This document shows, one piece after another, positions 4,829-53,800 of a DNA stretch of 64,000 bases. The notes beneath the pieces were generated by a model that worked only from the letters and a program-made list of their open reading frames with translations, was not told where the DNA came from and ran no database searches. The translations under genes and the position numbers were made by a program. This DNA is from Chromera velia (lineage: Eukaryota; Sar; Chromeraceae): contig JAHBMJ010005740.1 of NCBI GenBank assembly GCA_018398765.1, positions 1 through 64,000 on the forward strand. The letters run 5' to 3'. The number at the start of each line of letters is the position of its first letter. The stretch's first letter is position 1.

Positions 4829-7800
4829 ATGAAAAGGACGAGCCTCCTGTTGCTTATCTCCTCAGGTATGTATGTGGGGACGCCTGTGAATGTTTTGTAG
4901 GCAGCCTGGTTTCTGTTCAGAAGGAAACACCGTGACCCCTTTTATTCCTGCTCCATTTCTTCGTGCGCGCTCTCTCTCTGTCTCTCCAGTGCGCTCTTAC
5001 TCTTCGCTCCTCCGATTCGTGTTCTCCGCCTTCACACAACGCTAGTTGAAGTTCCTCGCCTTCCTGACCGACGTATGTGCTTCATTTTCTTTCGACCTCT
5101 TCCCCCCTCCACTCCTCTTTTGTTTCTATTGCTCCCTTCTGTGCAATTATCCTACAGGCTCTCTTTCCTGTCGCACCATCCTCTTATATATATATGATTC
5201 TCCGTCGGCTCTCCACCTGCATGCATTCTCCCCCCCTAGAGACCAACCTCCTACCTCTCTCTCTGCAGCTCCATTTCTCTGCACTGCACCCCCTCCCTAC
5301 CCGAGTGAGGACCCACAGGGGCTCCAAAGATCTCCACAGACAGTTTTACAGGAGGGAGGCGCACCGTCCTTCCCTTTCCCCTCTTTCCCATGGGAGGCCT
5401 CTTTGTCTGACCCTCAAGCCTACGACGCCGCTGTGCAACCCAACTTCTTGGAGAAGACCGAGAACACCAAGCAGTATCCAAGCGAGTCAGCAGATGCACA
5501 GCTGAATGGAAATTACGCCACCCAATTCTCTCAAACTGCTGATGACTTTTCCACAGCGCCTCTGTATGAGGAAGAACTTCAGGAAGGAAGCCATCTGCTG
5601 AACGACTTTCAGAATAAGAAGGGAGGAAATGAAGGGAAGGAGACTGAGACTCAGGCCCGAAATTCCTGGAGGGCCCGGCAAAGAGAAAAAAGGCTCCGAC
5701 GCCTTGAAAGAGTCCGTGCGGGGGCGAATGAATGGGGTGAACCTCCGAAGAGAGGGCATCGGGAACGGACCGCAGCCCTCCCGCTGTCTTTCAAGCAGGG
5801 GGGTATGGTGTCTAGATTAGAGGGAGGGGGGGAAGATACATTTGACGGCAACCAGAGGAGGGAACCGGGGGTCAATTCAGGAGGGAGACAACCCATCAGA
5901 CCTCCCTTCCAGCTAGACAGACCGGAACCTGGCCCCTACGCTTATTGGCCCTTCAGCGGTTCACTTCCTCGTTGGTCCTGGCCCGTCTACCCGTCCGTTC
6001 CCTCGCCTGCCTCTTCCCAGCAGTATTCTTGGAGAGATTCGCCTTCTTTTCCAGATGCTGCCCGGGGTGCATTTTATCAAGGAGGATGGACAGGGGAGGC
6101 AGAAAAGGAAGACCGCAGAGACTGGAGGAGATCACAGGCAGTGAGGAGAGGGTACCGGGGGGAGCCACAGGAGTGGCGACAAGAGGACGAGAGACCGGGC
6201 TGGAGGGGGGGAGTACGCGACTTTGAAAGACATCCAAAGGAAAGAACGGGAGGCCGAGAAGAATACAGGAGGGCAGATGGACTTCGATTCTCTGCAGAGG
6301 AACGGAGAGGGAGGGGCGGATATGGAGAAGACGAGTGGAGGGAGGAGGGACGAAGCAGCCGAGAACGGTATGAACTTCCACGACGCAAACACGGCATGAG
6401 GAAAGGCGGACCGAGACCGTCTGAGCGTTTTGGCAGAGAGATGCCGAGACAAGAGAGGACAAATTTCCGTCAAGGTTTCTCAGAGCAGTCCTCCAGTCAA
6501 GACACTGCCACAGAAAAGGACCCAGAAGAAGAAGATCCAGCCGATAACCTCACAAAACCAGAAGAAGACCCGAAAGAAAGTCCACCAGAAGACTCCAGAG
6601 ACCCACAGAAGGCGACTGAGGACCTCGAAGGAAGGTCAAGAGAAACAGAGGGCAGTGCTGAAGTGTCTCCCGAATCCGAAGCAGGAGGGGAGACAGGTTC
6701 TGAGGTTTCAGAAGAAATCCCCGTGAGTGATGCGAACGCACAGTCAGGGGACCATCCAGAGCCGGGAGTTGACGAAGGAGAAAAAGGAAAGGAAGAAAAC
6801 AAGATGGAAAATGAACAACCAGATGATGCTGCAGTGGCCTCAGAAGAGAAAGAAGTCCCAGGCGATGCAGGTCAAAGCGAAGGTCAGAAAAGTGTGGAAG
6901 AAGAACATGTAGAGCAGCCAGAGGTCCCCAAAGAGAAGAAGACAGACACCAAAGCCGAAACCTCCAAAACAGCTGCAGTCAAAGCGAAAGAGGCAATCAA
7001 AGAGGCCTCTGAGAAGGCAGAAGAACAAGCAGACCCCCCCCCCCCCCCNCCCCCCCCCCCCTCCTCCTCCTCCTCCTCCATCTCCTTCTCCTTCTCAGTC
7101 CCTCCCGGGCAACCACCGCTAGCTGTCCCCCAAGCAGGACAGACTGAGGAAGCACGCAGAGGCAGAAGCGAGGAAGCAATGGGACCGAGAAGAGCGCGAC
7201 GCCAGAGAGGAGATGGACAAAGAAGAGAGGGAAGAGCGAGAGGCCGAGCTAGAAAATGAGGAGGAGGCCTCTTTGTGGGTCCACTCCCAAGACGAGGCAG
7301 GTCGAGAAGAAGAAATCAAACAAGAGGAGCAGGAGGCAAAACACAGAGACCAAAGTGTGCCAGATGAGACAGAGGAAGATCTGGCAGTAGACCCCCACAT
7401 TCACCCAGATGAGTCCCCCCCCTCCCACGAGCACCGTCACCCGTCTCTAAAGACCCGAACAGGCCACTTAGGAAACTTCACCCACGAGCAGAAGCTCCGA
7501 AATCTCCACATCGAAGACTTTGGCTGGCAGGTTCGGCAGGCAGGCTGGGGTGTCCGAGGAGACCTCTCATCAGGTCGCATGCACGCAGAGGAGTGCGACA
7601 CTGAGGAGGGTCTTTACCAGAGGAAAACAGGCCGTTGCTTCATGTTCAGCAAACCGAAGTCCTTCTCGAAGTGGCAGGGGACGGAGAGGGAGGCTGTCAG
7701 ACAGGTGCAGGTGGCAGTGCTGAAGAAGGACGTCAAGGGCTTCCTTGCAGCCTGCAGGGTCAGTCAGAAAGACTTTGTACTTGGAATCCTGTTCTCTGCC

Positions 7801-10800
7801 TGAAAAAGAAGTCTGTATGACAATGAATGCATGCACTTGGAATCTTCTCCTCTGGAACGAGAAACGTGTCTTTACTTTCGGGCGTTTGGCAGATGTGTGA
7901 CGGCACGACAGAGGGGAACCCGAAGTTTCTCTACCTTAGCAAGAAGTCGTCTATATGAAAGTGGTGTTTGACTGACGAAAATGACGTGCCCTAGCAAAGA
8001 ATGACTTCTGTCCATAATGAATGCATTCTGCAGAATTTGTGGGAGAAGGACATCACCTGCTGGGATTTCTCAGACCCCCAAATTGAAAAGTGGATGGTCA
8101 GCAGAGAGATAGATAGACAGACAGACAGACAAGGGAGTGGAGTGGAATGACATCATGTTGTTGCAGACAGCTGCAGATAATTTCCGGTAGTTCATATGCA
8201 AGAAAGGAAAAGAAAGGACCGTGGACCCGGCGTTCTCTTCCTTTCGACGTCGGTGCTGGTGTTGTTGTCTGCCAACTGGTGTTGTTGTCTGCCAAGAAAT
8301 AGGGTAACTGCTCATATTGTTTGCTTCCTCTCCCTCCCTCTGCAGAACAAATTGGCAGAGAGCCGAGTCGGGCAGACAGACCGGGGCCGCGCCATGCTCG
8401 GCAGCACGGGCCAGGTGACGCTTCCCCTTCCTCCGATGGGCCCTGTTGCTCTTGCCAGTCTCCATGGCGACAAGAGGTTTCTTTCTTTGTTCCTCGACAA
8501 GCTCGCGGAATTTGTGGAAGAGCGAAAGTCGCAGAACACAAACAGCACTTCTTCTTTCACTGGAGGCAGAGGCAAAAACAAAGGCAAAGAGAACGTGCAG
8601 ACAGACAAAAGCTCCCGAGTCGAAGACTGGGGCTCCGATGAGATCTCAGCAGATCCCCGTGGATGGCCTGCAGCCCTGGCTTCTCTCGGGTGTGTGAACG
8701 ACGAGGCGGCCCTGCCCGGCTTCTCTGTGTGTGATCCGTGGGCGGAGTTACGTGCGCTACCCTCAGCAGATGAGCTTCTCGAGGTGTTCTCTCTGCTCTC
8801 CGCCTTCAACAAGAGGCTGAATCTCCCTGAAGGTTCTGTCTCAGCTGTGCTTCCGATGATGATTGAGAAGCAATCCTACGCCGCCTCGGTATTCTACGAC
8901 CATTTTGAACAGAAGGGAATCCAGTGGAGTGCAAGATCGGAAAATCTGGTTGCATCCTCTTCTCCTGGTCTGGGTAAGATCGGCTTCATTGCAAAGTTCG
9001 GTCCTCTGTCTTTGTTAGAGGAAGTGGTTGCAGCAGAGAAACGAAAAGGAGAGAAAGCACTGCAGAAACCATCTCATGAAGACGGAAGATACGTTCTTCG
9101 GAGGGCCCTCTGCCCAGAGAGGGGGCAACCAGGCTCTCCTAGCTACACCCTCGGGTTCAGGCCTGCAGGAAATCCGCACGGAGACATAGACTTCAGTTTG
9201 TATACGGGCCCTGAAGGTCTTTTTGCGCAATCTGTAAAGGACAGAGAAGACGCATTGAGGCGAATGATCGAGAGTGCGGGCCGAGAGTTCGTGTCTCGAC
9301 TGACGTTCATTTTCAAGACGCCCTTGCTGGGTGGTTGGGAGAGTCGGACAGTCAACTTCACCGACGACATTGGCAGGGCTTCCATCTCCGTCCCCGAGTG
9401 TGTGGTCGGGCTGCAGGACTACACGTCGGTGAGACAGAAGGACGCTCTGGATGTCCTTTCTCTCTTCTACAGAAGTCAGTTGACAGGCTTCAAAATTCGA
9501 GGGAACGGAGGAAGGCAGACGCCTGTGCATGAGCGAGAGAATCCCCTTTGCAGTTTCACCGGGCGTAAATATGTTCTTGTGCTGTGTACTTTCTTGCGTG
9601 TTGTGGATTTTTCCCTCCAAAGTGATTCCATGCTCCCTTTGCAACAGGTGTATGTCCACCTGGCTTACCCTGAAGAAGCACGATTTCTGTGTATGTCCGC
9701 CTGCAGACGGCAAACCCCTGAACCTGGAGGCCGCCTCTCCCTACACAAAGTGCACACCCCTGTCAGTTGAACAGTCCATTTCTTACCTGTACTCCCTTCA
9801 TGAACCGTCCATCCCCTTCGTTGCAGATCGGTGCTTTTTCAGAGATCGTACGCCTCGACCCGTATGGAATGCAAGAAGCAGTGCTTCTGTTCACTTGCCC
9901 CCTTGAAATCTCTGTGCAGGAAGCTGGCGGTGTTCGGACGTGCAGACACAGTGCGTGCCCTCCTGACACATGAGAAGGAAGCCCGAGAGAAGCTGAGCAT
10001 GTGGGACTATGAGAAGGAACAGAGGAGAGCGAGAGTGGTGGATCACATGGTCAACACAGATCGACTTGACGACCTTGCTTGGGTGGGCCCATGCATGCAC
10101 TAGTTTTGCTCAATCACTTTTTGCATGTGAATGGACAAGGTCCAAGTATGTATTGAATAGAGAAGAGAAGACCGGGCCCGCTCGCTGTCTTGAACGCTTT
10201 CACCCTCCTCTTCTTCTTTCCTTTGAAGAATTACGGCGGAAAAAGTCCTCCCTCAATTGTTTCGCTCTGATTCTGCACAACCGATCGTTCTGCTCTCCCC
10301 ACACCTCCACTCCCCATCTGTGTGTGAGTGTGTGTGTGTGTGTGTGTGTGCTCTGTCAGATGCACAGATCTGTGTGAAAGGTTTACTCACCCTTTTGCCC
10401 TCATTTGAGTCATGCATCTGATCCCTGCAGATGTCCTACTGCGCGAACCACCTCTCAACAAAGAAGCTCTCACACTACCGCCTGGGATTTCTGGTTCCTC
10501 GAAAGCCTCCCACTCTGCACGAGAGCAGAGAAAACCCCTTCTATAGGGACTGCGGGAGCTGTGGGACTCTCAATGCGGTGCATCTGGCGGCCTTCAGGTC
10601 AGCTGTCTACGTTGCCTGCATCACTTCATTGTCACAGGCAGGAGAGAGAGAGAACTTCCGAACGTTGCGTAATCGCGGGGTAGAGCGTCTGTACGTAAGG
10701 GCACTGGCAACAAGTTTGGACTCTTGTACGATCACCTTTGACTTCCTTCAGACTCCTGCATGCCGTGTTTTCACGGGCTTCTACGTTGTGCAGTCTCGTC

Positions 10801-10986
10801 ACGTCCTGTCTTCTTGTTTTTTACTAGCAGGGGCCATTCCACGATGCTGCGAGTTCTGAAGAAGCACGGAGCCCAGATGGCTGTCAAGAACGTCGACGGC
10901 AGATCTGCTCTACACTTTCTGGACCTCGGATGGACGGTCAGTGGAGGATCGACACACACACAAACACACACACACACACACAATTT

Positions 10987-11037
<51 letters not shown>

Positions 11038-13965
11038 TACACATAAACACACACGAATTGTTCTGTTCTCGTCTGTCAAGCATCTGTCTGTTTGATTGTT
11101 TGATTCTCTGCATGCAGGGCGATGCCACGACGTACCAGCTCCTTGCGGCCGAGGTGATGAATGCCGAGACCGATGCTGGAGGCGAGACCTCTTGTGCGAT
11201 GATCAACTCGAGGTCCCAGAGAGTGAGGTGCAGGGAGAGGCGTCTCGCATGGGCCATCGAAAAAGATCGGTATGGTCTCAGACCGGGGTTCTACTCTCTT
11301 GCCTATCCCCGTCTGGTGCGGTTAGGAGACAACGACTCGGACGGGCTTGTAAAAGTCAAATCGAAAACAGTTGGGGGGGTGCAGGCCAAAGACCTCGTAC
11401 AGAGGAAGCTGTCGATGACGCTGAGGTTCTTCCACATCGATGTGAACAACTACAGAGAGGCAGACGGGGGGAATTTGATCATGTGGGCCATCACTGCGCA
11501 CAACAGATACGCTCTGCAGCACCTGTCTGCCCTCGTTCAAGCGAGATCGTCCAGTATCTTCAGGGAGAGCATGGTAAATGAGATGAAGGCGGTGCGAGCA
11601 TGGAGTGCGCAGAAACAGCACAACCTTCTGCAGATGCAGGAGAGCCGGGTCGAGAAGGATAAGAGAGATGCAATTGGAGCGCCGGCCTCGTCATTCAACG
11701 GGACTGTGCAGTCTCTTCTGGCCGTCTCTGAGGAAGACGACGAGTGCGAAACCATGTGGTAAGTTCAGGGGCAAGAGCCTTCAAAGCCGCTCTTTTTTCT
11801 GCGTGGATCGCTTGACTAGTCACCTCCTGATTGCTGTGTAAGTCCCTGCATGCCACAGACGGAATTATCCACAAACTCTTGTGCTTTGTTTTGTCTGTGC
11901 AGGGCAGGCAACCCGAAGTGCAACGTTGTGCATCAGAGGTGCCGCACCTGCTGGATGGTGTTGGATCTGGACCCTGAGGGGTTGGACCTGAACATGGCCC
12001 TCTCGTATCCTATCCACATTCTCATCTACACAACCAGAAAAGATGACTTTGTCAGTCCATCCTATCCACATTCTCATCTACACAACCAGAAAAGATGACT
12101 TTGTCAGTCCATCCTATCCACATTCTCATCTACACAACCAGAAAAGATGACTTTGTCAGTCCACAAAGAGAGAGGCACAGACTTGTCTTGATATTGAAAG
12201 TGACGGCCACTGATCGGGCGAAAAATATCTTGACAGGCTGTGCGAGGGACACGGTATAGAGGAGAAGGACACAGACGGTATTTACTTATTGATGTTTGAT
12301 GGTTCGAGAGAAAAAATGGTGTCGTGGATCTGCTTTCCTCTTCTTTTCTGTAGAGATACTTACTTCCAGTGCCACTTGAATTATGTGAAGCGTTGTGGAA
12401 AATCAACGTCCTTTATTATTCAAATTGAAGATGTCCCAACTAATTTCTCCTTCTTGGTGGTGCAGGGAGGAACCCAGCGCTCCGCAGGTCTGGTGATCTT
12501 GAAGGAGCTCTTGTCTCTGGGCTCTGTGGACCTTCTGTACACAGCCAATGGGATGGGCCTGAGCCCCATTCAATTGGGGTCGATTTTTCCCAGGGCTCTC
12601 GAGCTGCTTCAGGTGGGTGTGTCGGTGTCCGTGTCCGTGTGTGTACTTGGACCATGCACCAGTATGTTAACCTTCCTGCTCGCTGGTTCCTTGTATTTCT
12701 GTGTGAAATTACTACTTCATGTGATACTGTCTTGTTCGATTCAATTCGCTGATCCCCCTCACATTCACTCTATCTCCATGGTTCCCCCCCTCCTTCCTTC
12801 TCACTGCAGCTCCTCCTCTGGTCCCAAGCGCAACTCCCGGGGGGGGGCCCTATGCAGCAGAGGAAGCAGATTGTCTTCTACTCACATCTCCTGGAGGACC
12901 TGCTGCTTGACAAGGTAAGAAGGCCGGCTAAAAGAATTTCTGGGCGAACACTCCAGCGTGCAGAGGCGATTCTGAAAGCTGTCTTCCCGTGATTCCTCTT
13001 CCTGCTCCATGCAATGCATAGCAAGTGTATGTAAAAGACTTGGTACGCCCATTCAAATTGCAGGCCCGACCCTTCAACCCCCTTGCGAAGGAGACCCAGA
13101 CCCCCGAGCACAGAGCAGCCATCGACCTGGCAGAAGCGGGATTCTCGGAAGTCGCTCTCGCAGTGCGGAGACGGGCAGACAAAGAGAACTTCTCCTACAA
13201 TCAGGTAGGCAGGCAGGCAGGTACGCACACAGGGGTCGAACCTCCTCAGTCAAGATTTCTCCTCCCTTTGTCGTTCTGTTTCCTTCCCTCCTTCCCCCCT
13301 TTGCTTGTCGTTTGGCACCATGTCTGACGTACAGAGACGGATAACGACATGCGACGGTACAGCGGACACTTCTTTTTCAATTATTAATTAATTGATTGGT
13401 TTTGACTGCAGCTGCTCGTCAGCACCCTGCTTGGCCTCGGTGCCCAAATGAACCAGGCAGCCCTGAACAAACTGATTGCCCACGGGAGTATGAAGGTGGA
13501 CACAGCCACAAGGAAGTTGTTCGCCCTGGTCAGACAGGACCTCTTCCTTAACCACCAAGACAGAGAGAGGTCCTCGAGCTTTGAAGACTGGCAGGAGAGG
13601 GAGAAGAAGCAGGAGGGGAGAGGGTCAGAGGAGGCGATGGCCAAAATTTCGTATCCCAACACGGTCCCGGAAGCCAAATTGTTCGAGGGAGACTGGCTGC
13701 GGGTGGAGGTGTTCTCTTCACAGGAGCTGGCGGCAGAGGGGGCAGATTTGAGTCAGGGGGGCAAGATGAGGTGCAAAAAAGTTGGAGACGCTCTGGCAAA
13801 CAGATCGAAGGACGAAATCACCACAGACAAAACAATGTCAGCCTCGTGCCCTCCTACTGATTTTTCGACAGAGCCCTATTCAATGCACTCAACATGAGTT
13901 TGTCTGCATGAGCCTGTAGGAATAAGTCCCTCCTTCGGTTGCAGGGCCCCCGCCTATCTCAAGAA
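4829..13965 (+). CDS. Signal-peptide protein with charged low-complexity region and ankyrin-type repeats (multi-exon; probably N-terminal half of a giant membrane protein)
   Basis: Exon 1 (4829-4865) encodes MKRTSLLLLISS. It joins in phase at 5269 to give a classic secretory signal followed by a Pro-rich stretch. Exon 2 encodes a long charged Arg/Glu-rich, low-complexity region and is broken by a poly-C run holding an n at 7049. Downstream exons chain in phase: to 7758, 8346-9564, 9707-9761, 9827-10082, 10431-10597, 10831-10936, 11118-11758, 11903-about 12055, 12466-12612, 12810-12914, 13064-13204, 13412-13836, 13945-13965. The clearest ankyrin unit crosses the 10597/10831 junction (TLNAVHLAAFRGH, then DGRSALHFLDLG). 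Weaker units lie near 9900 (KLAVFGRADTVRALL) and 12470-12612. The short exon at 13945 splices in phase into the beta-helix exons, so I favour a single gene through 23833. The alternative is a separate ankyrin gene ending at the TGA at 13895-13897. An ankyrin array behind a signal peptide is unusual. Confidence 0.6.
7034..7080 (+). other. Poly-C run with single-base gap inside coding region
   Basis: A run of about 27 C is interrupted by one n at 7049 and followed by CTC repeats. The reading frame used upstream ends at 7259. The frame that continues into the ankyrin region opens at about 7130-7213 with an Arg/Glu-rich sequence. Two explanations fit: the C-run length is mis-called, or the C/CT-rich tract is the pyrimidine tract of an intron ending near 7133 (AAGCAG). 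Confidence 0.6.
10937..11117 (+). repeat. CA dinucleotide microsatellite inside an intron
   Basis: The intron opens with GTCAGTGG and ends ATGCAG. Between these, roughly 10955-11055 is almost pure CA/CACACATA. The exons on both sides join in phase 0, so the repeat is wholly intronic. Confidence 0.8.
12009..12164 (+). repeat. Three tandem copies of a 52-bp unit at an exon-intron border
   Basis: Units begin at 12009, 12061 and 12113 and are essentially identical. Each contains GACTTTGTCAGTCC, a good match to this window's donor consensus. The first unit continues the open frame of the exon that begins at 11903, so the array offers up to three donor sites spaced 52 bases apart, in different frames. 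Confidence 0.85.
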
Positions 13966-16900
13966 GTGTTCGGCTTCGACTGCAGAGTGTCGGCCCTTTC
14001 TTAAAAGGCATCGTTCAGAAGACTTCCCAAGCCGCGAGAGAGACGAACCTTTTGACTGAGAATCGTCTCTGCATTTCTCCCAGCATTGTTCAAGCATAGC
14101 ATTGCACCATTTGTGTACGTTCTGTGACTGCAGAGCTTGCGATGTGTGGAGCGCCCTCGAAATTTGCTTCCGTCACACCTCTCAGGTTGGTTACATGGTC
14201 ATTTGAGTGACCCTTATTTCGTCGCAGTTTTCCAAAGGGTGCTCTTTGGGGTATGGGATTGTAATCGCGCATGGTGTTGGAATTGCCACCCAAAAGTCAT
14301 TGTGCATTGCATGGCTTCTAATGTCTTTGTTTTACTGTCTTCGTTGTCCGCAGAGAAAAATCAGGGGCAAATGGAAGAGAAGCTGCGCCATTCTCTTGCG
14401 CCCTCTTCCCGAGGACCTCCGCCTTGCGGACTCCGACCTGCCTCCAGAGGACAGAGAGAGACCCAAATTTGAGGTCTGCCGAGCCAGAAGAGCAACGTCT
14501 GCGGAGGTCCTGCGTCCAGGCCATTTCCAGCCCCACATCGTGGAGAGGATGGTGGAGATTCGGCCCAAGGATTTCGAAGGGGGGGATTTCAGGAGGCCCC
14601 TCCTTGTGTGTGGGAGGTTCACGGAATCGAACGATGACGATGACCAGGAAGACGAGAAGGAGGAGACGGTCGAAGATGCGGGGCGTCTTTGGAGGTTTCG
14701 ACTCAGCAGACTCATGCATGACCTTCTGGGGCAGTCTGTGCGGACGGTGTTCACATCAGTAGGCAGCCTCCGACAGTCGTTCCACAGAGACGTCGTCTTT
14801 GAAGGCGAGCAGGATGGCTCCGTCGCAGAGGAGGCGCAGAGAGAGGAACTAAGAGAGGCAGCAGGAGAGAACGGGAACATTCTGTCTCCAGTCACAGGGA
14901 AGGAGGGTCAGACGTCTCTGTCCATCAAGGGTCCCGCCGAGTTCCTCCAGACTTCCGAGAAGGCAGACAAGAAGGAGGGCAACAGTCTGCAGGACGAGGC
15001 TGTTCGTCTCCCCTCTCTCTCTGTCCTCAGTTTTGCCCACAGCTTCGTGATGATCTCCCATATTGAGATCCTCGGAGCCCCCTCTTTCTGCATCTTTGCA
15101 GAGGACAGTCAGGTGATTATCAATGACGTTGTCTTCACAGGATGCGGGCAGATGGCAGCTCAGCAAGGATACATGCCAGAATACGTCGACACACTCGACC
15201 GACATTTCATCGCGATGGATCTATCGCCCTCTGTTCAAGCAAGTGCAGTCCCCGGACAGTTCTATGAGCCCCTCTTCCAGGCCCTCACAGGATCTGCACT
15301 CGCGCTCTCCTTCACTACAAACGTCCGCTTCCTCACCCTAGTAAAAGACTCCACGTTTACAGACAACTGGACTAGCGCGGGGGGCGGGGCTGTGAGCGTC
15401 CTTCTGGCCCCTCAGGTCGTGTCTGCAGAGGGTGCCGGCATCGTCGTGCAAGGTTAGTCTGCACGGTCTTGCCTTGTTCTTATTGTATGGAAAGTCTGGG
15501 GCTCTGAGGTGGATTACAAGAATCAGAAAGTGGTGTCTTCTGGCTAAAAGGTTACGTGTAGTGCCCCTTAGCCTTATCGTCGGCTCAAAAGACGACCGTC
15601 GTCTACGTGGTTTCTGATTTCTTTCGTCTTGTGAAGAGCCCCGCAACACTCTGAGCTGTCTGTTGAGTTTGCTTTCTGTCCCCGCTCCTCAAAAAACTTC
15701 TTCACGCCTCTGTTGTCCACCTGTAAAGTTGACCATACCGCATTTGATCTCAAATCGTTCATTCGGACCTCTGTTGCCTTCATTCAGGTTGCCGCTTCAA
15801 AGACAACATTGCGGGTCTTCAGGGAGGGGCCGTCTCTATCTTCTCTCTCGCCTACGCACTCCTGCAGCTGCCTGTGGTCATCCAGCATTCGCACTTTGAG
15901 AACAATACGGTCAGTCAGACTAGTCATAAACAGGTGCACTTCAAAGAGAGAGGGGACAACGGGGCCTGAACACGCTCTCATAAACCTTTGGCTGAGCGCA
16001 TATTCGAAGCCAATCTGCAGTAATGGTGCGTGAAAAGTCCACACAACACGTGAGATGTCAGAATGCTCAAGTGCCAACGTGGACTTCCTCCCCCTTCTGT
16101 CCTTTCTTCTTTTCGGATGCTTTTTGGTCTATCATCATCACTTTTCCGCCTCCGTCAACTCTCCAAATCTCCCGCCTCCGTCTGCACTTGCAGGCAGCCT
16201 TCGACAGGTTCAACCGAAGCGAGCTGGTCCCCCCCTCTCCCAGCTCGGAGACAGCAGCCAAGGGATTCCCCGTGGGGTTCCTGGGCCTGGAAGAACTCGA
16301 CTCTGAGGAGGCGGACAACAGCAGCTCTTCTCCCGCAAGTGGCAGCCCTAGTTCTAATGCCTCTCCACTGACTCCCATCGAGTCTCTGATCAGAGCTGCA
16401 CCGGGGACAGAGAGCATCGTGACATCGGGGGGGGCCATTCGACTCTCTGCGGGACCTGCAAGCTCAGCCCTCAGGATGTTTGCACGAAACTTGAGAGTGG
16501 GGAGGGGAGAACCGTCTCTTGCAGTGGACAACTGCACACTCATGTCAGTCAGTCAGTCAGTCAGTCAGTCAGGCAGGCAGGCAGGCAGGCAGGCAGTCAC
16601 TAGAACGAGAGTTCGTCTGAAGTCCTGTACAGAGCACAGCCGACACTGACGTCCATGGTCGGCAGATGAAGAGGCAGGTACAAAAAAGATTGAGGTGTGC
16701 CTGCCCTTCATGGCTACTGCCTCAGGCCGGTTCTGTCAGGTATTATTTGCACGGCGAGTGTCTTTGTTTATGCGTCTATTCTGTCCGCAGAGGGAACACC
16801 GCGATCGCCCTTGGGGGTGCTGTGAGTACGTCTCAGGTGAGTGTGGCTGTGCACCGTTCCATCCTTCTGAACAACACGGCATTGACAGAGAATCCGAGTG

Positions 16901-19900
16901 ACGATGCGGGTGCCGTCCATGTGAGTCAGCTGGGAGCCAAAGGGTGGGGGTTCGCCACAAGCATCAAGGAGAGCCTGTTCGAGAACAACAGACTCGCGAT
17001 GGGTGCTTTGATTGGGGCAAACCAACTCAGCGTCATTTCAGATGGTCAGTCGACTGAGCTGCTTTTCAGCGATAAGCACTATAGTGTGACTCACGATTTC
17101 CGAAGAAAATGCCGATATTTGCCGCCAAACGACTTCCTTTCTTCACTCTAACAGGATAATGTCTCTCAATAGTCGGCCTTCCTCGATTAGACACTCCCGA
17201 CTTGCTTCGCTTTCTAAGCTCCAGTTCCGTATGGTCGAAATTTCTCCTTCTGTAAGAGAATCATGCAGTGACTGAAAAAAAGACAAACCGCATTCTTTGT
17301 GATTGTGTTCTTGAAACCTGTACAGCCGCCATCGAGCTTCGAGGCCTGGACCTTCGAGACAATCAGACATCAACAATGGCGGCAAACGACACGGACATGA
17401 TCAAACAGATGCAACTGAAGGTGAGCGGCTCATCCTCTCTTGCACCTTCAATTGCTGTTTGCTCCATTGTAGAACACCTTCTCACGCGCTTCATCATGTC
17501 CAAGTTCCCTTGATTCGAGTTGGCTTAATTCTACATTCTTCCTCTATCCCCCTCCTTTCTTTCGCGTATGGATTTCTTCATTTCATTTTTGTTTCTGGGA
17601 TGGACGCTGCATGTCTACTCTGCATTTCTTTTTTCGCTGTTCTCATTGCAGACCTACGGCAACTGGGAGGTCGTGCAGAGTGCACAGATCAGCACGACCT
17701 GCCCTGCTGGGGAAATGCCCGTCTCCTACAAGCAGACGTCCCAGGGCGCTGTGTCCGAGTTTTGCATCCCCTGCTTTGCCCCTAGTTTCCTGATCAGCAA
17801 AGGCATCACTGAAAATCTTCTCGGTCGGTTGATGAACCCCTCAGTCAGGTGGTGAGGGAGTGGGTGAGTGCATTCGTAGTCTTTGTTGCGGCTGTCGTTC
17901 GTCTCAAATCTTTGACCAAGTCGGAAAGCCAGCACATTAATGCATATGCAAAGAATAATGCCTTGCGAGTCTGTCGGCTTTTGGGACTCCAGAGGAAAGA
18001 AAGACTTTCTCTTGTTTATGTACACACAATGCTGCAGGTCTTGCTTTATGTTACGAAACCTCAGATCCCTTCTTCAAACTGACCCTGTGTACGGACTTGC
18101 AATGATTATGTTTTCGTTATTTCTCATAATCATGTACGTTGCAGACATGGAGAGGGACATCACTGTGTGTCATGATCCAGCAGACTGTCCTGTCGGCGCT
18201 GCGTGTGGACTCGTCAGTCACTGTTTACTTCTTTGTATTGAGTTTCCAACGATGAAAAGCAATGACACTTTTTAATTCCTCAGGAGAGCCAGAGTATCGT
18301 GACGTCAAAAGCGTCCACTTTTCTCTTTGAGATCCAGCGACAACTGCAACTTCAAGTCACACTTCCGCCGCAATCTTACCGTAATCAGAGACCTCTTTAG
18401 CAGATCCGATGGGACATAAGCTGCAGACATCTTTTCGTTCTCAAGAGGAACTTGTGTGCATAACAACCTCCATTTTGCGGCAGCAGAAAGTCTGTTTCCA
18501 CAGAGAATAGGGGGGTGCTCTACTGCCCCCGCACTGATAAGGCAAATGGACAGCGACGGACAGCCACATGACTTTCCTGAAACTGTCGGAGGTCTCTCAC
18601 GTTGTTCGTACTTGGTTTCCTTTGCAGGGGCGGAACTTTGTGTTTGCGACGAACGGGTACTGGTGTTTGCACAGCGCCAAGACGGACAGACTGAGATGCG
18701 AAGCCTGCCCTCCCGGGCACTGCGACGGGGTGGATGCCCTGACAAAGTGCGCAGAGAAATTAGAGGAACGGAAGAGGCGGCATCGGGAGAATCACGGGAA
18801 GGAGGGCATGAACAACGCGGTGGAGAAGGAAATGGAGTGCGATGGAATGATCAAACCGGGAGGGCACTCTGGTTGTCCAGGTGGGCAATTAAACTGCGTT
18901 CTCTTTTCGCTCGTTTTTCTTCGTTTTTTTACAACCAGATTTTCCGTTTGTGAGACTTTCGGACTATTTCTGTCTCTCTGTGACGTCAGTCTGTCTACTG
19001 GCTATCTTTCTGTCTTCCTTCCGTCCTTTTGTTCTCGAACTCTGTGTCTGTGTGTGGAGAAGAGAAGCGGAGAGACTGCGACTATCCTAATGCTCGAAGG
19101 CAGGCAGGCAGCACACTCGTTGATCGCCTCCTCCTCCATGCTGTTCACATGTTTGCAGGCCACTGGACGGGTCCCATGTGTTCTCTCTGCAAAGAAGGAT
19201 CTAGACCTGGGACCTATCTGCACAAACTGGGTTGGTTGGTCGGTCTTCTGCCAGCTTGTGGGGGCTGCCTAACCTTCTGCTTCTTGTATTGGCCTCATGC
19301 CAGTAGACCGCATGTATACAGAGTGGAAGCTTCGCTGTTTTCTATGCCAATTTGCCGAATGGGCCCTTACTACTGGCAGCTGCAATTCGTTTTTTCTGTC
19401 AGCTCAAAGACAGCCGTCACAGCTCAGAATGGTTTACTGCTGTAACTAAGGTCTTACATCTTCTCTGTCTGTCTGCAGGACATTTTGACTGTCTGGAGCA
19501 GTGCGATCGGGATCTGACCTCTTTGGACCTTTTGAGATGGACTGCTCTTCCTGTGATCGCGCTTGGGTACGTCCTGTTCCTCCTGGTGTCCAACGCTGGT
19601 GCGGTGGGTGTGTGGAAGTCTGTGTTCTACTTCACTGGAGTGACTGCGCTGGTGCGGATCCAGTTCGGGGGCCCCCTTCAGGCTCTGCTGAGCGTTGTGA
19701 TCTCGGCAGGAATCACGGGTGATGAGGGTGGGGGCTCAGACGGAGACTTCAAGGCATCGGTCGGTCAGCTCAAATGCGGTCAAAGAATTTATGTGATGAT
19801 CCGACTGAACTGCTCCCAAACGAGTGCGAGCGTCTCTATTATTGAGAGCTGTCCAGACAAAGAGAAGCGGGGTCTTGCAGAGGAGACGGCAATGGGCCTC

Positions 19901-20548: not shown

Positions 20549-20594
<46 letters not shown>

Positions 20595-22916
20595 ATCCGG
20601 ACTAACTCGACAACATTCGTTCTGCGGACCTGTTCTTGCATACTACCTGCCAGTACCATCCAGTGAGTGCGTGTCCAGAAGTTCTACCTCGCAATGCAGC
20701 GTTTCTCCCTCCTCTGTTGCACCTCTTCCTGCAGACAGACACGCATATGGAACGCTAGAAGTACAGAGTGTGATACATAAACACATATATACACACAGTC
20801 TGTGCTCGTTGAAGCTGCAGACCCCTCTCCATCTCTTCGTCACGCTGCGTTCCTGATTGATGGTGTCCTCTTCCGTGTCTCTCGCTTGTGCAGGCTGTGT
20901 TCTGTCCTCTGCTCCTCCTTCTGACTCTTCTCGTGCACTCCCTCTTCGTGTGGCTTCGTCGTGGAACGGTGGGGGGACAGACAGAAGAGACAGGGAGAAC
21001 AGGTGAGGGGGGAGACGTGGAGAGTCCCCTTGGAGCCCCTCTGGTTGGAGAGTCCTCCCAGGCGGGGGGGGGGAAGGGGGACCGGAGTTTAGAGACTGCA
21101 GAGGGGCAGGAGAAGACAAAGCTGCTGGAGGGACAAGGGGAGGGATGGGGACGTCCAACCGACATGGATCAGAGTGGGCCTTACCATGAGACGAATGGTT
21201 TTTTGGACGCACTGTTGGAGCTCCTGGACCGTCTGTATGCGAGGACGTTTGCGTTTTTGATGCTGACTCTGTATCCTGCTTGGTTGGTGGCCCTGGCAGA
21301 AAGCTTCGATTGTGTGGACCTTCCAACAAATGAGGAGGGAGAGGGGGAAGAGGACCCGTTTGGAGACAGAACAATCAGGGTACGTAGGTCTAGCTTGCAT
21401 GGAGTTACTTGGTTGCATGCGGAGTCTGTCAAAAAAGACAGCGAGTGATTTCAAGAAGTCTTGTTTTGGGCCATGCCAGGCAGCTCAAATGATTTGACTC
21501 GAGAGTTCTTCTTGGAAAAATCCGTTTTCATCTGAATGCTTGAATAAGAAAGAGACAGATGACTGCATGGGTCTTCGATCTGCATGCACGCAGGTTTTGT
21601 GGAAAGCCGCGACCGTTCGATGCGATACGGCTGGTGGGGTTCGTCGTGACATTTTTGCGGCAGTGAGTTTCTCTCTGTTCTCCCTTCTCCCCGCGGGCCT
21701 CGTTGCCTTCGTGCTGCTGGCGCCTCGGAGAAGGCGGTTCTACCGACCCGTGCTGGACATGCTCACTGGGTGCTTTCGGGAAAAGTATCGGTGGTCAGTC
21801 AGTGGGGGGGCCTGACGGGGTGCATGGGCAGAGGGGGTGGGCAATAAGGGGGCAAATGTGCTGGTGGAACAAACACTCGCACAAATTATGCTTGACAGGT
21901 AAAGCACTCAATCAACTGTTTCTGCGGGCCACTAGCTCAGACAATATCTACGGTTGGAAAAATGGCTCTCCCAACGTTCGATGGATGAAAAGGGATTTTG
22001 AACTTGCTTTGACTTTTGTGCTTGCATGTACCTGCATGCAGGTGGGATGCCGTGATCATCGCGCGTCGCATTTTGTTGGTGATGATTGTCTGTTTCCTGC
22101 CGAACCGGAGGGACCAGACCCGAGTGGCGTTCTTCTTCTGCGTCCTTGTTCTGGTCTCACACCTCGTCTGCAGGTCTGCTTCTTGTGTGATGCTTCCGTT
22201 CTTCTCTTCCTACTGCCGCAGTGCCTGTGGACTTGTCACACAGGGAAAAGGGTCTGCAGACATTGCTTCACCTCGCTTACTTTTTATACACACATGCATA
22301 GGCTTGGGCTTCCACTGACTGACATCCTGGCTAGCTGCCTCGGCCAGTGAATGAATTATCCACTACGCAATGACCGCATCAATGGCAGAACTAATGAACC
22401 AGGAAATTTGAACACATACATTTGTTAATGAATGAATGAATGAGCGAGCGTTTGCAGACCGTTCAGGACTGCCCTCGACCAAGCTTGTGAGATCACCTGC
22501 CTGGCCATTCTGGTAGTCCTTTGTGGACTCAAGCGAACAGACACGGTCAGTGAGCAGACTAAGCAAGCATGATTGTGGTGATGAATGGACAGTGCACGTA
22601 GTTTGTTTGGCTTCCAGTTCGACTCTTCTTGAAGATGTTCAACTTTGTTGTATCTGGAAGCATCCATTTTGTGTCGCAATTCTCCTTCTGCTTGTGGGGA
22701 GAGTGTACAAGAGATCGCACTTTCATGGAACAATTTCGCGTGCGAAAAAATAGGAGTTTATTTTGTTTCCAAGAAACAAACAACACACATGCGTTCTTTC
22801 TTTGCTTTTTTCTTTCCCTGGCAGGAGTTTGAGGACTTGGAGGACCTGAAGATCAAGAAGGGGCTTGCAGACAGACACGCGTCCTCGAAGATCTTCAGGG
22901 TCTGTTTGCGTGTGCC

Positions 22917-22948: not shown

Positions 22949-23833
22949 TGTGTGTGGCTTTGGGATCGCTAGTAGTGCAGAGCGACACAGAGGGTGAAAG
23001 TAGACTCGCTTTCGGGCTGTCAGATTTATTTGTGTCTGCGTGGGCGGGGTGCGCAAGGAAGCTTTGGGTGCTGGATAGATTTGGAAACTCAATGCCAACA
23101 ATGTGGGCAAAGCGATTATTTCAATTCCGCTCACGTCAATCTGAATGCATTGTCATTGTCACTTGCAGGTAGAGACGATCAACACAATCCTCTGCATGGT
23201 CCCTCTTCTCTTCATCGCGGCCCATTACGGTCAGTCCATGCGATTTAGCTGCTCTCTCTGGTAACTACACAGGGATCGATCCTCGGCCTGACTCTTCCTA
23301 TCTCCCTCTGCCAACTGTTTCGTCCCTTTCCCTTCAGCCGAATTCATTTGCGGAATCACACGGATATACAACTGTTTTGTGTGTTCAATGCGTGCGCAGC
23401 GATGGAATTCAAGAAGAAGCACCTGGCCCGGTTTCTCGGCAAACCCCCCGAGACGGACGGAGACGGCGACCCGGGGCGAGAAGGAGACGAGGGAGATGGC
23501 AGTGGAGAAACACTTCTGATGGAGGACTCAGGGAACCTCCCCCGGAAGACTGATGGTATAGGTAGCGAGGAGAGACCTAAAGAAGAGGGAGGGGCAGAGA
23601 ACGCAGTCAACGGGGAAGCCTCAGCCTCGGCAAGTTCGAGGCCGTCGGGCTCTACCCCTGCACCCTCCAGCTCTATCGCCTGGCCCTTTGGCTTACGGGA
23701 GGCATTGGTGGGGGGTTCTGGGAGCAGGGAACAGAAAGCTCCAGAGGGGACCACTGCTGATGAAGGGAGAGGGGGCGAACTTCAAGATGGGGGAGGAGGA
23801 GGACCCGCACGTGAGGTGACGGAGCCTCCCTGA
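13945..23833 (+). CDS. Polytopic membrane protein with beta-helix (PMP-like GG-A repeat) ectodomain and Cys-rich juxtamembrane region
   Basis: These exons chain in phase: 14134-14185, 14354-15452, 15788-15909, 16194-16543, 16791-17044, 17326-17420, 17652-17823, 18145-18212, 18628-18880, 19159-19230, 19479-19759, 20007-20090, 20894-21379, 21594-21793, 22042-22173, 22458-22545, 22825-22899, 23169-23229 and 23400-23833 (TGA). The ectodomain has GGAV/GGAI turns each followed by a short strand and F-NN motifs, as in right-handed beta-helix and chlamydial PMP-type repeats. Next come Cys-rich blocks (CEACPPGHC, GPMCSLCKEG). About nine hydrophobic helices follow, from LLRWTALPVIALGYVLFLLV to INTILCMVPLLFIAAHYG. 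FREKYRWWDAVIIARR resembles the conserved YxxWWE-type segment seen in protist members of this architecture. The tail is acidic and Gly/Ser-rich. A likely role is a cell-surface receptor or adhesin; the ligand is unknown. No signal peptide lies close upstream, which supports joining to the exons from 4829. Confidence 0.75.
16544..16598 (+). repeat. GTCA/GGCA tetranucleotide microsatellite starting at a splice donor
   Basis: The exon ends at 16543 (phase 2, ending CTCAT). The intron begins with about six GTCA units, followed by about six GGCA units. The donor GTCAGT is therefore the first unit of the microsatellite. The next exon at 16791 joins in phase. Confidence 0.85.
20520..20592. repeat. 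GA dinucleotide microsatellite
   Basis: This is a GAGAGA run with a few AAAG interruptions inside the intron between exons 20007-20090 and 20894-21379. Its mirror on the other strand reads as meaningless Leu-Ser repeats. Confidence 0.85.
22910..22956. repeat. TG dinucleotide microsatellite
   Basis: About 20 TG units follow the donor GTCTGT at 22900 by roughly ten bases, inside the intron before the exon at 23169. Confidence 0.8.
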
Positions 23834-27135: not shown

Positions 27136-29102
27136 ATGTTCTCTTTTGACGACAACAGGAAAATCGGCATCGGTCTCACCATCCTCGGAGTCGCGTTCAC
27201 CTTTCTTGGCATCCTCCTTTTCTTCGACAGAGCTTTCCTTGCATTAGGAGATGTCAGTCTGCAAATTTCATGCTCTCTGCCCAGACATTCCATGTACCAG
27301 AGATAAGGTAGCACTCTTCCTTCATGAGTGTGTGATTGCCATCCGTCATATGAAATGCTTCTTTGTCGCTCCCCGACTTGCTCACTTGATCTTTCGATCT
27401 GGTTGATCTGTCTGTTGCCGGAGGGATACAATCGCCAGCTGCTCTGCACGCCAGCTCTGGACAGTTGTAACTGTATGATGCATCCATGGATGCATGCAGA
27501 GTGGCTTCAAATGCATTCACTATTTCTCCCTCGGCTTCGTGTGGACTTTTCGGCTTCTCTTGCATCGTCCACTCGTGTGCCTCCTTCTTGCACTGCAGCT
27601 CGCGTTCCTAACGGGGCTGTGCTTCATCCTGGGCCTCCAGAAGACAGCGCGGTTCTTCTTCAAAAAGGAGAAAGCGGTAGGGAGCGCATTCTTCTTCTTC
27701 GGCTTTGTCCTCGTGCTCTACGGATGGCCTTTGATCGGTCAGTCGGGACGGCAGTTTCTTTTTTTTTTTTTTTTAAGCGAAGAAGGAACGAAGGAAGTGG
27801 GGCGCTTGGCGTGTTTGCCGTCCAACTCTCATGGAGAGAGATGCTGGAAACGCGTGTGAAGACATCTCGCATTGCACACTCCAAATGCACACTCCACGGT
27901 TACCAATCATCAGGGGATTTCGGAGACTGCGTTCACTCGATCAGTTCTGCTGCTACTCGGTCGAGACAGTCATTTTCGCTCTCTGTGTCGATCGGCAGGG
28001 GAGATGAAGACACGCAGAGACTGGATTCTTGGGCTGAAGGCTCAAACTTATGACTCTTATCTCTTCAATGCCTCTTTGGGTGTCTGCAGGTTTCTTGATT
28101 CATTTTTTTTTTCTTTCATACAGAATTCTTTTTGCATGCCTCTTTGGGTGTGTGCAGGTTTCTTGATTCAAATTTACGGTGTATGGAAACTGTTCAGGTC
28201 TGTCTCTCCATCTGCATGCATGCATGGCTCTTTCAGGGGCCTGTCGGGCTGGGGGGGCAAAACTGGGCGTGCAGGGGCTGCCAATTGCGGGAGTATTTGA
28301 AAACGGTAGAGGGTTTGCTTTCGCATAAAAGAAGACTGCCTGTTTGAGTGCCATGCTACTCTGTACAATTGGTGCAAACTCCATCGGTGTCAGCAGTGCC
28401 GTCTCATTATCTCTCTCGATCATTTCTTTTCGTCTGCTGCAGCGCCTTCCTGCCCAATGTGGTTCAAGCAGTGAAGATGAGTCCGATCGGGTGGATTTTC
28501 AACCTCCCGGGGTTCAAACAGGTAAGTGATTAGAATAATATGAGGCGACTCGCTCTCTCTCTTGGCTGGTACGTTTGGCATGAATGCAGTAGCACAGAGT
28601 CGGGAAAGAAGATAAGAGAAAACAAGAGGAGAGAGAAAGTCGGGCCGGCTCTTTGCGGTTGGGAGCGTGGATACGCTATGAGTACATGAAGGGCTGCATG
28701 TGGGTGATAGGAAGGAAGCACCTATGGCGAAGATTTTTTGGCTTTTTGCTTCTTGACTTGTCGTGTGTTTTCTGTATGTAATTTAAGCCATCGTGGGCTC
28801 AGCAAAAAAGACGAGACACGTCGGACTGCTTGAAGGACTACATCTAACGGAGGTTTGGATGTCTGAGGATCGGCCGACCGTCGGTGACGCACGCAGCTTG
28901 TGTGTGCGATTTGTTCGGCCTCGAAAGGTGTTGTATGTGTCTTGGAGCTGGCTGGGGACGTCGTGTCGTATGGCGTTGCATCTTGCAGAATTGAATGGGT
29001 GTCAGTCGAAACAGAAGCGAATCCCAGTGTGTGAACGTTCCCCTTGTTTGTTTGTTTCAGGTCGGAGACTGGATCTACGATCAGAGAAGGCTTCCTCTCT
29101 GA
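27136..29102 (+). CDS. GOT1: GOT1 family vesicle transport protein
   Basis: Five exons chain in phase: 27136-27252, 27599-27737, 28158-28197, 28443-28521 and 29061-29102 (TGA). They give 138 residues, the same length as yeast Got1 and human GOLT1. The start MFSFDDNRKIGIGLT is near-invariant in the family. Four hydrophobic helices follow: GLTILGVAFTFLGILLFF, LAFLTGLCFILGL, AFFFFGFVLVLYGWPLIG, and the GFLIQIYGVWKLFR to SAFLPNVV region. Charged loops (KTARFFFKKEKA) and the conserved PIGWIFNLPG lie before a divergent C-terminus. Got1 proteins sit in ER/Golgi membranes and support COPII vesicle fusion and Golgi transport. Three donors are GTCAGT or GTCTGT and one is GTAAGT. A 35-bp duplication of the exon-3 acceptor lies just upstream in intron 2. 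Confidence 0.95.
28068..28170 (+). repeat. 35-bp direct duplication spanning the GOT1 exon-3 acceptor
   Basis: Copies at 28068-28102 and 28136-28170 differ at one base. Each contains TGCAG followed by GTTTCTTGATTCA, meaning a 3' splice site plus the first bases of exon 3. The offset is 68 bp, so only the second copy gives the GOT1 reading frame. Confidence 0.9.
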
Positions 29103-44520: not shown

Positions 44521-44524
44521 CTTC

Positions 44525-46449: not shown

Positions 46450-46495
<46 letters not shown>

Positions 46496-47227: not shown

Positions 47228-47390
47228 TGGCCGCCGCCCCGCGGGGTTGGTATAAACCCCCAGGACCCCCACTGGTCCCCTAGTAAGGCCCTAGTACACC
47301 TCCTCGGGGTACTCCCGGTACCGGGCCCCTTTCACCCCCCGGCCCCCCGGCGGGTACGCGGGGGGGGGCCCGCCCCGTGCTTATAGCTCG
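47228..47390. other. Sharp GC-rich island in AT-rich DNA
   Basis: About 160 bases are dominated by C and G runs with GTAC/CCGG palindromes (CGGTACCG at about 47317, GGGCCC). CGGGCCCC at 47322-47329 can pair with GGGGCCCG at 47365-47372. The flanks on both sides are strikingly AT-richer. I see no frame, tRNA or rRNA signature. Confidence 0.6.
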
Positions 47391-50800: not shown

Positions 50801-53800
50801 GACTGCATCCACACGGACAGGTGCTGTGAGTTCTACCCAGACTTTCCTCCTTCCGGGGCATCTGCTCAGATTGGATGGAGGGGGGGACTTTTCGAGAATC
50901 ACAGCTGGCACAAGGGGGGGTTATTCAATCCCTTTCTGCTCCGAGGCACGACACACGAGCCTCTGGTGGACGCCTTCCACTCAGAGCCCCTCGGAGGCCT
51001 ATGGGACCAGCCGCCCGAACTCCGACAGCTCTTGACGACCTTCACAGTCATGAACGCGACCATCAGGCAAGACAGGGACAACATCGCTGTCGCCAGACAG
51101 GACGCTAAACCGTCTTGGATGGAATCAGACAATTGGTTGACTGTGGGGAATTTGAGGGCGTCATCGATGACGCAGATCTCGTCCCTCTGTGCGGCCCTGT
51201 GGGATGGCCGACTTCCCCTTGAGATCCCCTACGTGCAGGTTCTCGTTCAGCATCTGATGTGGCAAGTCGGGGAGATTTCAGAGAAGCAGGGGGGGGGGGA
51301 GGAAGACAGCCGGTTCATGTGGCGTCACGCTCTTGTTTCGAGCAATGCGCCCTCCCGCTCAAAGCACACACCCCTACTCAGGGATGCTCTGTCGAAAGTC
51401 GCGGGTGTGCTTCGAGAGCAGCCCCGACAACACCTGACGATGCTGCTCCTCTGCCCCCTCGCGGGATACCTGCGAGGCCTGGACGAGAACACGTACGCGT
51501 CTCTAGCCGACAATCTGACGTCCACTGCCCAACGGTGGGCGGAGATGAAGGCGGAGGAGGTCAGGAGAGGAGAGAGCGAGACAGGCAACGAAGAGGTAGA
51601 GAGACAGCGAGAGAGACGAATTTGGGAGGCCACGTTTCTCGGGTATGCCGCACTGAGCCGGTATGATGGGTTCCTTTCCATCCAGTCCGTTGAAGACTTG
51701 TGTGTGGGTCTGGCTGTGTTGCACCTCCGTGTTCAGACCGGGGGGGCGGAGGGGCGCCTGATTGAGGTGCTTCGGCATGTGCACGGACGGTGCCTTGAGG
51801 TGGTTGCGCGAAGGATGAAGACCATTTTGGCACTCGTGAGGGGGAGTGGGGGGGACAGGATCCTGACCGCAGCAGCAAGAAAGATTCTCGGGTCTGGGGT
51901 TGTCCCTGCTCTGGTTGATATCTGTTGGAATCAAGTAGGAGGGAATAGGAGTTGCTGTTTCGAGGCCGTGTTTGGCGGTCGTCTTCTCTCTTTGAACCTT
52001 GCCACAGGGTGTGTGCTTCTTGACGGTCACCCTCCCTCCTCCCTTCCCCCCTCTGTCACGACGCACGCGTTGTTTTTGAGGACATTCGGGGACGCCAAAT
52101 TTGAAGTCGTGAGGGACGCCTCAGGGCTGATGAGGACGACCTCAACCTTCGAGGAACGGTTCTACACATTCCTTCCGTTGGAGAACGGGAAGCAGCTGAG
52201 AATTTCGGAAAGCTTTTTCGATGAACAGAGACAGGTCGGTAGCGGCAGGCAGCCGAGAGGTAGAGGGGTGGGCATGAAACAGAAAGAGGAGAATCGCGGA
52301 GCACGAAGGAGGCGGCGGGGGGGAAAGGAGACAAACAGACCCGAAGCAAACAGCTAGGCGTGCAAGCAACCAGCAGGCAGGAAGGAGATGGTTACTAGGC
52401 AAGAATTCGGGAGACAGATAGATAAAGAGAAGACGAAAAGGCCGCAAGGAGATGGGAGGAAAAAGACAACTGTGAAGGCAGGGAGGAGACATGCAGATAG
52501 GCATGAAACAAAAAGATGGGAAAACATGAAAGAAACAGGCAGGCACGACAGAGAGTACTTGCTTCATTGAGATAGACCTTCAAAAAAAAAAATCTTTAGA
52601 GCGCAATGATCTGACATTTTCCTCATTGGTTTGAAAGTCCCATATTGAATTGGGTGACCTCTCGACTGTAAGAGTTTTCGTTTTCTTCGTTCTGCAGGAA
52701 GAGGACACGCTCGAGTTGCTTGACCCCAATGGAAAGTGGGCAGAGCAGCTGCCTCGTCGTCTGCGTGATCTGTGCTCCCATTGGTACAGCCACACGAAGA
52801 ACGTTGTGGTGATGCGAGGAAAGAAGTATTTGGAGAGAGAGGCCAGGCACCTGCTCGTGCTGTGCGGTTCTCCCGGTTTGGAGGAGTGGCTATGTGTCGA
52901 TGTCCCCATAGTCGACAGGGCGGGCAGCGACAAAAAGGAAGTCTGGTGTCGCCTCGCACATCAGGCAGAGGAGGGGCGACTGGGTCGTCACGTTGTTCTG
53001 GGGGGGGAGGGGGATGTCTCTCGTGTCCTTGAGCAATTAGAATCAGTCGAGGAGAGGGAGTTCATTCATGTGAAGGAGGAACCATGGGAAGGGGGGGGGG
53101 GAAGGGTGCTCCGCTTCGAGCTCCCCCGGGTGAAGGATTTGTGCTTCCGTCTGTTCCCATCCCGGGCGGGGGGTGAGTGGCGTCTGCGTTGTGCCAGTCA
53201 GAGAGGGTGGCGCCTGGCTGACTGCCAACTGCTGCCCGACTGTCTGTACCGTTTTGAGCAGTACCTCGTGCTTGAGAGGGATGAGTGGGAGGTGCCTGAG
53301 AATAATCAGGGCGTCTGTGGTGCAGAGGGGGCGGAGGCCCTTGAACAGATGGGGGTTCGGACTTCGGTGTTCGATGTCGATGCCTCCCTTGAGGAGGGAA
53401 GGGTAGAGGAGAGGGGCCAAGAGCAAGAGCAGGAGGAAGAGGAGAAGGAGGAGGAGGAGTTTGTGTGGGGGGAGGCAAATATCAAAAGCGAGAGGGAAAA
53501 GGGGCGTGATTGTCAAGCGACCCTCCTTCTCGTTCCCGAAGAGGGGCTCCTGTCCTGCTCCCGTTCCTTAACAGGGATGTGTCTGAAGCGCCCTCTTGGT
53601 AGTGGGGCTGAGAGATCCTTCCACAAGGTTGAGGTCCACCCTTTATTCAGAGACCTCCGACCCCTCGACCCATCCGGTCGTCTCCAGCTTGCTTTGTTAC
53701 ACGCAGCCACGAGTTCTCTGCTCGAGGAAGAGCGCTCCTCTGCTAGGGGCATGCAGGAAGCCATCCGTCTGGTCAGGGCTTGTGGGGACAACGTGCCTCT

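Follow-up and report, generated by a model that had tools for sequence, protein, structure and literature searches.

Why do introns favour a GTCAGT start, with a C at the third intron position (+3), in a genome of the alveolate Chromera velia, when a purine is usual there? The question is raised by a 64,000-nucleotide stretch (contig JAHBMJ010005740.1, positions 1 to 64,000 of the forward strand; hereafter the window), for which a preliminary description made from the letters alone had proposed that 5' splice sites (donors) favour C at +3, that the GOT1 gene provides the safest junctions, and that an altered 5' end of the U1 small nuclear RNA (snRNA) or an unusual reliance on positions +4 to +6 lies behind the preference. 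Pairing with U1 is the common explanation for the purine at +3, and a donor with C at this position thus bears directly on what fixes the donor consensus. Here we pinned donors by protein alignment in the window and elsewhere in the 177.8 Mb assembly (4040 contigs, the window being contig C3812), read the U1 and U6 genes, and propose, at a probability of roughly one half, that the introns belong to the ordinary U2 type with GT-AG ends and that their donor consensus has moved to (AG)/GTCAGT and is set by the U6 step of splicing.

C at +3 in donors pinned by protein alignment

Proteins were aligned to the DNA with a spliced aligner (BLOSUM62) that lets introns start at any GT, or with a small penalty at GC, and end at any AG, and that weights nothing beyond these terminal dinucleotides, leaving +3 unweighted. 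Eleven loci of this one genome were aligned, namely GOT1 in the window together with five CCT chaperonin and five proteasome genes, which form a conserved housekeeping set and not a random sample; the templates were proteins of solved structures, except for GOT1, for which the human GOT1 sequence was used. For each junction a uniqueness margin was calculated as the drop in score when the given donor was forbidden, and we kept the junctions that start with GT, span an intron of 60 bases or longer and reach a margin of 5; these are 67 out of 78 across the 11 genes. The 11 left out comprise one GC junction and ten GT junctions with a margin below 5 (in one of which the intron is also under 60 bases), and the ten GT junctions carry C six times and G four times at +3.

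C occupies +3 in 45 of the 67 pinned donors, ahead of G (13), A (5) and T (4), while at the 1489 interior GTs of the same introns the next base is G in 530 cases, C in 434, T in 380 and A in 145. C therefore follows GT in 67% of the donors versus 29% inside the same introns (434/1489; p = 1.4e-10), and purines at +3, found in 18 out of 67 donors, lie under the interior background of 45% (p = 0.0015). GTA is scarce inside the pinned introns (145/1489 GTN), so that the low frequency of A at +3 is partly background. Considered gene by gene, C leads at +3 in eight out of 11 genes, the remaining three being zeta (4 C, 4 G, 1 T), alpha6 (2 C, 2 G) and psma5 (3 G), and under a stricter margin of at least 13, applied to the first nine genes, it is found in 34 out of 48 donors. 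On these alignments we consider the preference for C at +3 confirmed in the genes examined, and what had been proposed for the window holds beyond it as well.

GOT1 deserved to be singled out as the safest gene of the window, its donors at 27253, 27738 and 28198 being fixed by the alignment; the introns are listed here together with their status in two versions of a gene model described below.

27253..27598, + strand: GOT1 intron 1, GTCAGT, donor GAT/GTCAGTCTGC, acceptor CACTGCAG; alignment to human GOT1, margin 20; the second model version starts it at 27257
27738..28157, + strand: GOT1 intron 2, GTCAGT, donor TCG/GTCAGTCGGG, acceptor GTGTGCAG; alignment margin 27; omitted by the second model version
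28198..28442, + strand: GOT1 intron 3, GTCTGT, donor CAG/GTCTGTCTCT, acceptor TGCTGCAG; alignment margin 13 and both model versions
28522..29060, + strand: GOT1 intron 4, donor CAG/GTAAGT (not C); both model versions, past the end of the pinned alignment; acceptor (29060) placed by eye, the gene models ending the intron at 28947

Around the C, the donors look familiar. Position +4 is A in 42, G in 16, C in 5 and T in 4 of the 67, position +5 is G in 66, position +6 is T in 53, and the exon ends in G at -1 in 56 and has A at -2 in 39. The idea that the triplet AGT at +4 to +6 is kept thus applies in full to 30 out of 67 donors, and the suggested reliance on these positions is carried by the nearly invariant G at +5 and not by the triplet. 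Acceptors are unusually strict, as had been suspected: C stands at -3 in 67/67, G at -4 in 53 (GCAG in most introns, 53/67) and T at -5 in 58, giving TGCAG in 48/67 (e.g., window 27591-27598). No clear branch point consensus emerged, CTNAY being present in 18/67 terminal windows and in 50/282 mid-intron windows.

Genome-wide word counts and gene models

Word counts over both strands of the whole assembly point in the same direction. MAGGTCAGT occurs 6672 times versus 3227 times for its reversed pattern, whereas MAGGTRAGT, which covers two sequences, occurs 5596 times versus 9663, the reversed pattern being a rough control that does not preserve dinucleotides and leaves the background unmatched. 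A 322 kb sample, in which the pieces from the window overlap by 1 kb, gave GGTCAGT 89 times (reversed 27), GGTGAGT 53 (50), GGTAAGT 21 (55) and GGTTAGT 14 (33). Raw word counts are inflated by repeats such as the 52-base unit at window 12007-12163, which contains GTCAGT and is present in three exact copies; one predicted donor, at 12051, falls within it.

As further support we used a two-strand hidden Markov model of genes, which was self-trained and received no starting donor information past GT. It converged on C at +3 in 332 out of 592 introns. With the columns +3, +4 and +7 to +10 held at background, C was found in 68/160 (42.5%) of the better-supported introns from the window and random loci, compared with 589/1577 (37%) after GTNNGT inside introns, and with all columns trained it was found in 88/167. 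We use the model for nothing more than support, since it splits introns too often where GTCT is abundant and strengthens the motif that it has itself learned. Within the window its two versions, both over-split, place 91 plus-strand introns (C at +3 in 50) and 63 (C in 30), respectively; the about 34 donors, roughly 20 of them with C, counted in the preliminary description were not reproduced as exact numbers.

U1 and U6 genes

In the assembly, three U1 family matches were found among the 41 scored out of 2442 first-look candidates. Only one of them (L001) is a complete U1, with an Sm-type site and a 3' stem, and it starts with AAACTTACCTG; the second (L002), a 3'-truncated copy, has the same start, and the third (L003) is a copy without the 5' end. 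The complete U1 begins AAACUU, not AUACUU. The base facing +3 is the canonical one in both copies that have the 5' end, and an altered U1 5' end is not supported. A whole-genome search for the U1 start carrying C, G or T opposite +3 yielded two exact matches, which are the known canonical copies, and with up to three mismatches its total of 284 was not above the 292 of the reversed control. This search also returned one one-mismatch and 19 two-mismatch matches, some of them reading ACTGACC, whose surroundings were left unread and none of which lies at a U1 family match. The one-mismatch match, at C588:20475-20492, has ACTGTCC ahead of a U1-like GGCTGGCGCT. With canonical U1 copies and no variant gene recognised, an altered U1 was rejected as the cause as far as the DNA that was read can tell.

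For U6, seven matches were obtained (strands by eye), of which six contain the box ACAGAGA and one (L009) ACAGAGT. A U1 with ACUUACC and a U6 with ACAGAGA, the hallmarks of a major spliceosome, are thus both encoded in the genome. The introns fit this assignment: 77 out of 78 aligned junctions begin with GT and one with GC (margin 3), under an aligner restricted to introns that start with GT or GC and end in AG. The purine at +3 of U2-type introns, a usual but not a defining feature, is seen in only 18/67. As to U12-type introns, whose donor is RTATCCTT, no GTATCC was present among the 67 pinned donors; the aligner admitted no donor starting with AT, and no search was aimed at the minor snRNAs.

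Donor classes and a tandem echo

The donors fall into two groups by their exon ends. The exon ends in AG at 3/21 GTCAGT donors versus 29/46 others (Fisher p = 2e-4), and this split tracks positions +4 to +6 (AGT 5/30, other 27/37) and not +3.

A further regularity concerns the bases following the donor hexamer. Position +7 equals +3 in 44/67 donors (30.0 expected by permutation; reached in 0 of 20000 permutations) and +8 equals +4 in 29/60 (18.4 expected), with +7 following +3 as C with C in 33/42, T with T in 3/4 and G with G in 4/10. Examples are GTCAGTCAGT, GTCCGTCC and GTCGGTCG, as at position 3432 of locus L046 and at position 186 of the reverse complement of locus L045. The first tetranucleotide is repeated perfectly in 18/52 GTNNGT donors and in 137/303 interior GTNNGT; since such repeats are no commoner at donors, slippage in repeat-prone introns is enough to account for the echo. 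A separately recognised C at +7 was accordingly set aside, +7 mirroring +3. Through the echo, 52/67 donors are followed by another GT four bases downstream, and in 48 of these 52 the used GT is richer in U1-complementary positions than the downstream one (3 ties).

A proposed role for U6 pairing

What could favour C, and not simply any base that is not a purine? Pairing energies were computed by nearest-neighbour rules in a fixed register, for two exon contexts and without modified bases. For U1, C at +3 costs about 4.1 kcal/mol relative to A or G and is almost equal to U (-8.2 and -8.4). Tolerance by U1 is therefore insufficient on its own, because C and T are equally bad for U1 and yet 45 donors have C versus 4 with T. 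For U6, C at +3 has the advantage over A (by 2.5 kcal/mol), G (1.9) and U (2.4). The base at +3, "usually an A or a G", has been described as interacting weakly with G44 of U6 (PMC11732430), and it contacts G44 in the Bact and C complexes (PMC9803359; these two papers, like most of those below, are cited from excerpts). With C forming a Watson-Crick pair with G44 and U1 indifferent between C and T, we infer that C may be kept for the U6 step.

In the mechanism we propose, U1 would tolerate the mismatch at +3 because G at -1, G at +1, U at +2 and G at +5 pair with it, together with either an exonic A at -2 or an intronic pair of A+4/U+6. After U1 has left, C at +3 would form a Watson-Crick pair with U6 G44, adjoining the pairs G+5-C42 and U+6-A41, at a site where most eukaryotes would have a weak purine-G contact instead. 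The donor would then be tuned to the U6 step, and the U1 step would pay for it.

A number of observations weigh against this proposal. U at +4, which would pair with an unmethylated A43, is found in 4/67 donors, compared with A in 42, and the perfect U6 complement GTCTGT in 3/60. The computed U6 helix is weak (+0.1 kcal/mol for C), and in a free register the gain of C over A shrinks to 0.3 kcal/mol (-1.99 vs -1.69). C is about equally frequent with strong (21/30) and weak (24/37) positions +4 to +6, so it does not act as a compensating position. All three kept donors of psma5 have G. The gene model with unweighted +3 gives a weaker signal (42.5% vs 37%) than the pinned donors, which we think reflects dilution by misplaced junctions, and the evidence itself consists of 67 junctions of 11 housekeeping genes, from DNA and protein alignment.

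Domain matches to the families of METTL16 (two exon-sized pieces on one contig), SNRNP27 and LUC7 are present. The Pfam METTL16 family also matches bacterial and archaeal control genomes, so its presence speaks only weakly for methylation of U6. The zf-U1 (U1-C type) domain was matched twice, once strongly and once weakly, at C983:59779-59889 and C419:34457-34558, and this possibly indicates a second U1-C-like protein. No match to Photo_RC, the domain sought for plastid psbA, was obtained.

Alternative explanations

The reader of C might instead be a protein of the early spliceosome, such as LUC7, a relative of U1-C, Prp8 or SNU23. We regard this as unlikely. In its favour are the LUC7 match and the two zf-U1 matches in the genome and the C at +7 that often joins the C at +3 (33/42), although tandem echo describes the latter better than recognition of a further position would. 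According to the excerpt of PMC4383343, human U1-C does not touch the bases of the donor. A variant or modified U1 that reads C at +3, through an unrecognised or missing gene with G facing +3 or through editing or modification of the RNA, appears rather improbable: the complete U1 and the truncated copy are both canonical at their 5' ends, a C-pairing U1 would need to coexist with the canonical one, and the unread near-matches lie off the U1 family loci and do not exceed the reversed control. Its probability is kept up by the approximately 12% of letters read that are N, as the assembly may be incomplete, by the invisibility of RNA modification in DNA, and slightly by the match on C588 and several two-mismatch matches that start with ACTG.

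If, on the other hand, U1 pairing were merely relaxed and +3 unread, mutation bias might supply the C, GTC and GTCN tandem repeats being common in these introns. The tetranucleotide echo (44/67 versus 30.0) and the scarcity of GTA in introns (145/1489) speak for this, but it is disfavoured because an unread position would match the background, whereas C reaches 67% at donors versus 29% in the interior and G and T fall under their background (13 and 4 of 67 vs 530 and 380 of 1489); we therefore consider it quite improbable. That the GTC sites are unused donors, and the preference an artefact, is very improbable. The gene models do over-split and the junctions come from DNA and protein alignment, but C is given by an alignment in which +3 is unweighted, also at the stricter margin (34/48), and the word counts agree. 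Finally, the common ends of the introns (GTCAGT and TGCAG) would fit copies of one mobile element starting with GTCAGT (introners), an explanation that is hardly credible here and is ruled out for the 67-intron sample, in which an all-against-all blastn returned one weak 39-base pair. The proposal that the U6 step sets the donor consensus is, in our judgement, the best available reading, and it is testable.

Predicted introns and other features of the window

The donors cited in the preliminary description carry the hexamers given for them at all 13 coordinates, and ten of the 13 are used by the first version of the gene model, eight by the second, in which +3 is unweighted, and 11 by at least one. 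Beside the three in GOT1 they are:

7759..8045, + strand: predicted intron, GTCAGT; first model version, the second ending it at 8033
10937..11117, + strand: predicted intron, GTCAGT; both model versions
15910..16193, + strand: predicted intron, GTCAGT; both model versions
17045..17325, + strand: predicted intron, GTCAGT; both model versions
18213..18218, + strand: cited donor GTCAGT, ambiguous; the first model version prefers the GT four bases on (18217)
19760..19765, + strand: cited donor GTCGGT; in neither model version
21794..22041, + strand: predicted intron, GTCAGT; both model versions
22546..22824, + strand: predicted intron, GTCAGT; one of two model versions, omitted by the second
23230..23399, + strand: predicted intron, GTCAGT; one of two model versions, the other starting it at 23234
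52235..52697, + strand: predicted intron, GTCGGT; both model versions; beside a long DUF3638 reading frame (Pfam)

This last reading frame, at window 52635-58433, is unbroken over 1933 codons and matches DUF3638 and DUF3645, in a region that is elsewhere intron-rich. The window also contains an ATGA tetranucleotide array of about 150 copies (23963-24566) and, at 32033-33436, two reading frames that match RVT_1 (reverse transcriptase), one of them under the curated cut-off, which probably represent the remnant of a retrotransposon.

Relation to known donors and significance

Compared with the canonical U2-type donor MAG/GTRAGT (PMC3488318), the introns studied here share the GT, the strong G at +5, the G at -1, the T at +6, the AG end and the canonical U1 and U6 ends, and they differ in having C and not a purine at +3 and a TGCAG acceptor with C at -3 in 67/67. 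The yeast donor GTATGT offers a parallel, having shifted from complementarity to U1 to pairing with the ACAGA box of U6 (PMC9803359). There the U6 pair is gained at +4 (U-A) and A is kept at +3, whereas here it is +3 that would gain a pair (C-G), with A retained at +4. In eukaryotes with two donor classes, U5-strong AG//GUNNN and U6-strong NN//GURAG (PMC11732430), the same see-saw between exonic and intronic positions is described as found here, but the intronic class in C. velia is NN//GTCAGT and not GURAG. Relaxed donor rules are known from other alveolates, with GC and GA donors in dinoflagellates and non-canonical introns in Amoebophrya, in two strains of which no U1 was detected, as far as the excerpts of both sources go (PMC4083563, PMC7789003); here, by contrast, the introns retain GT, the genome has a U1, and it is +3 that has changed. 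The tunicate Fritillaria likewise combines unusual, non-canonical introns with an unchanged U1 5' end (PMC13326754).

The word "splice" is absent (0 times) from the main text of the Chromera and Vitrella genome paper (PMC4501334), and no printed statement of C at +3 was found in the titles, abstract openings and passages covered, figures, supplements and most subscription journals lying outside this scope. Within the literature searched, the feature appears to be unreported. In practice, a donor model that has learned GTRAGT would put many introns of this genome in the wrong place.

In a wider and more tentative reading, which we hold as possible and somewhat short of an even chance, the whole genome would have traded the pair between U1 and the donor at +3 for one between U6 and the donor, its consensus being fixed by the contact with U6 G44, and the textbook purine would reflect what U1 has historically preferred, without being required by the spliceosome. 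A canonical U1 together with examined donors that mostly carry C amounts to a natural separation of the requirements of U1 and U6, and this separation makes it directly testable in C. velia whether U1 or U6 sets the donor consensus.

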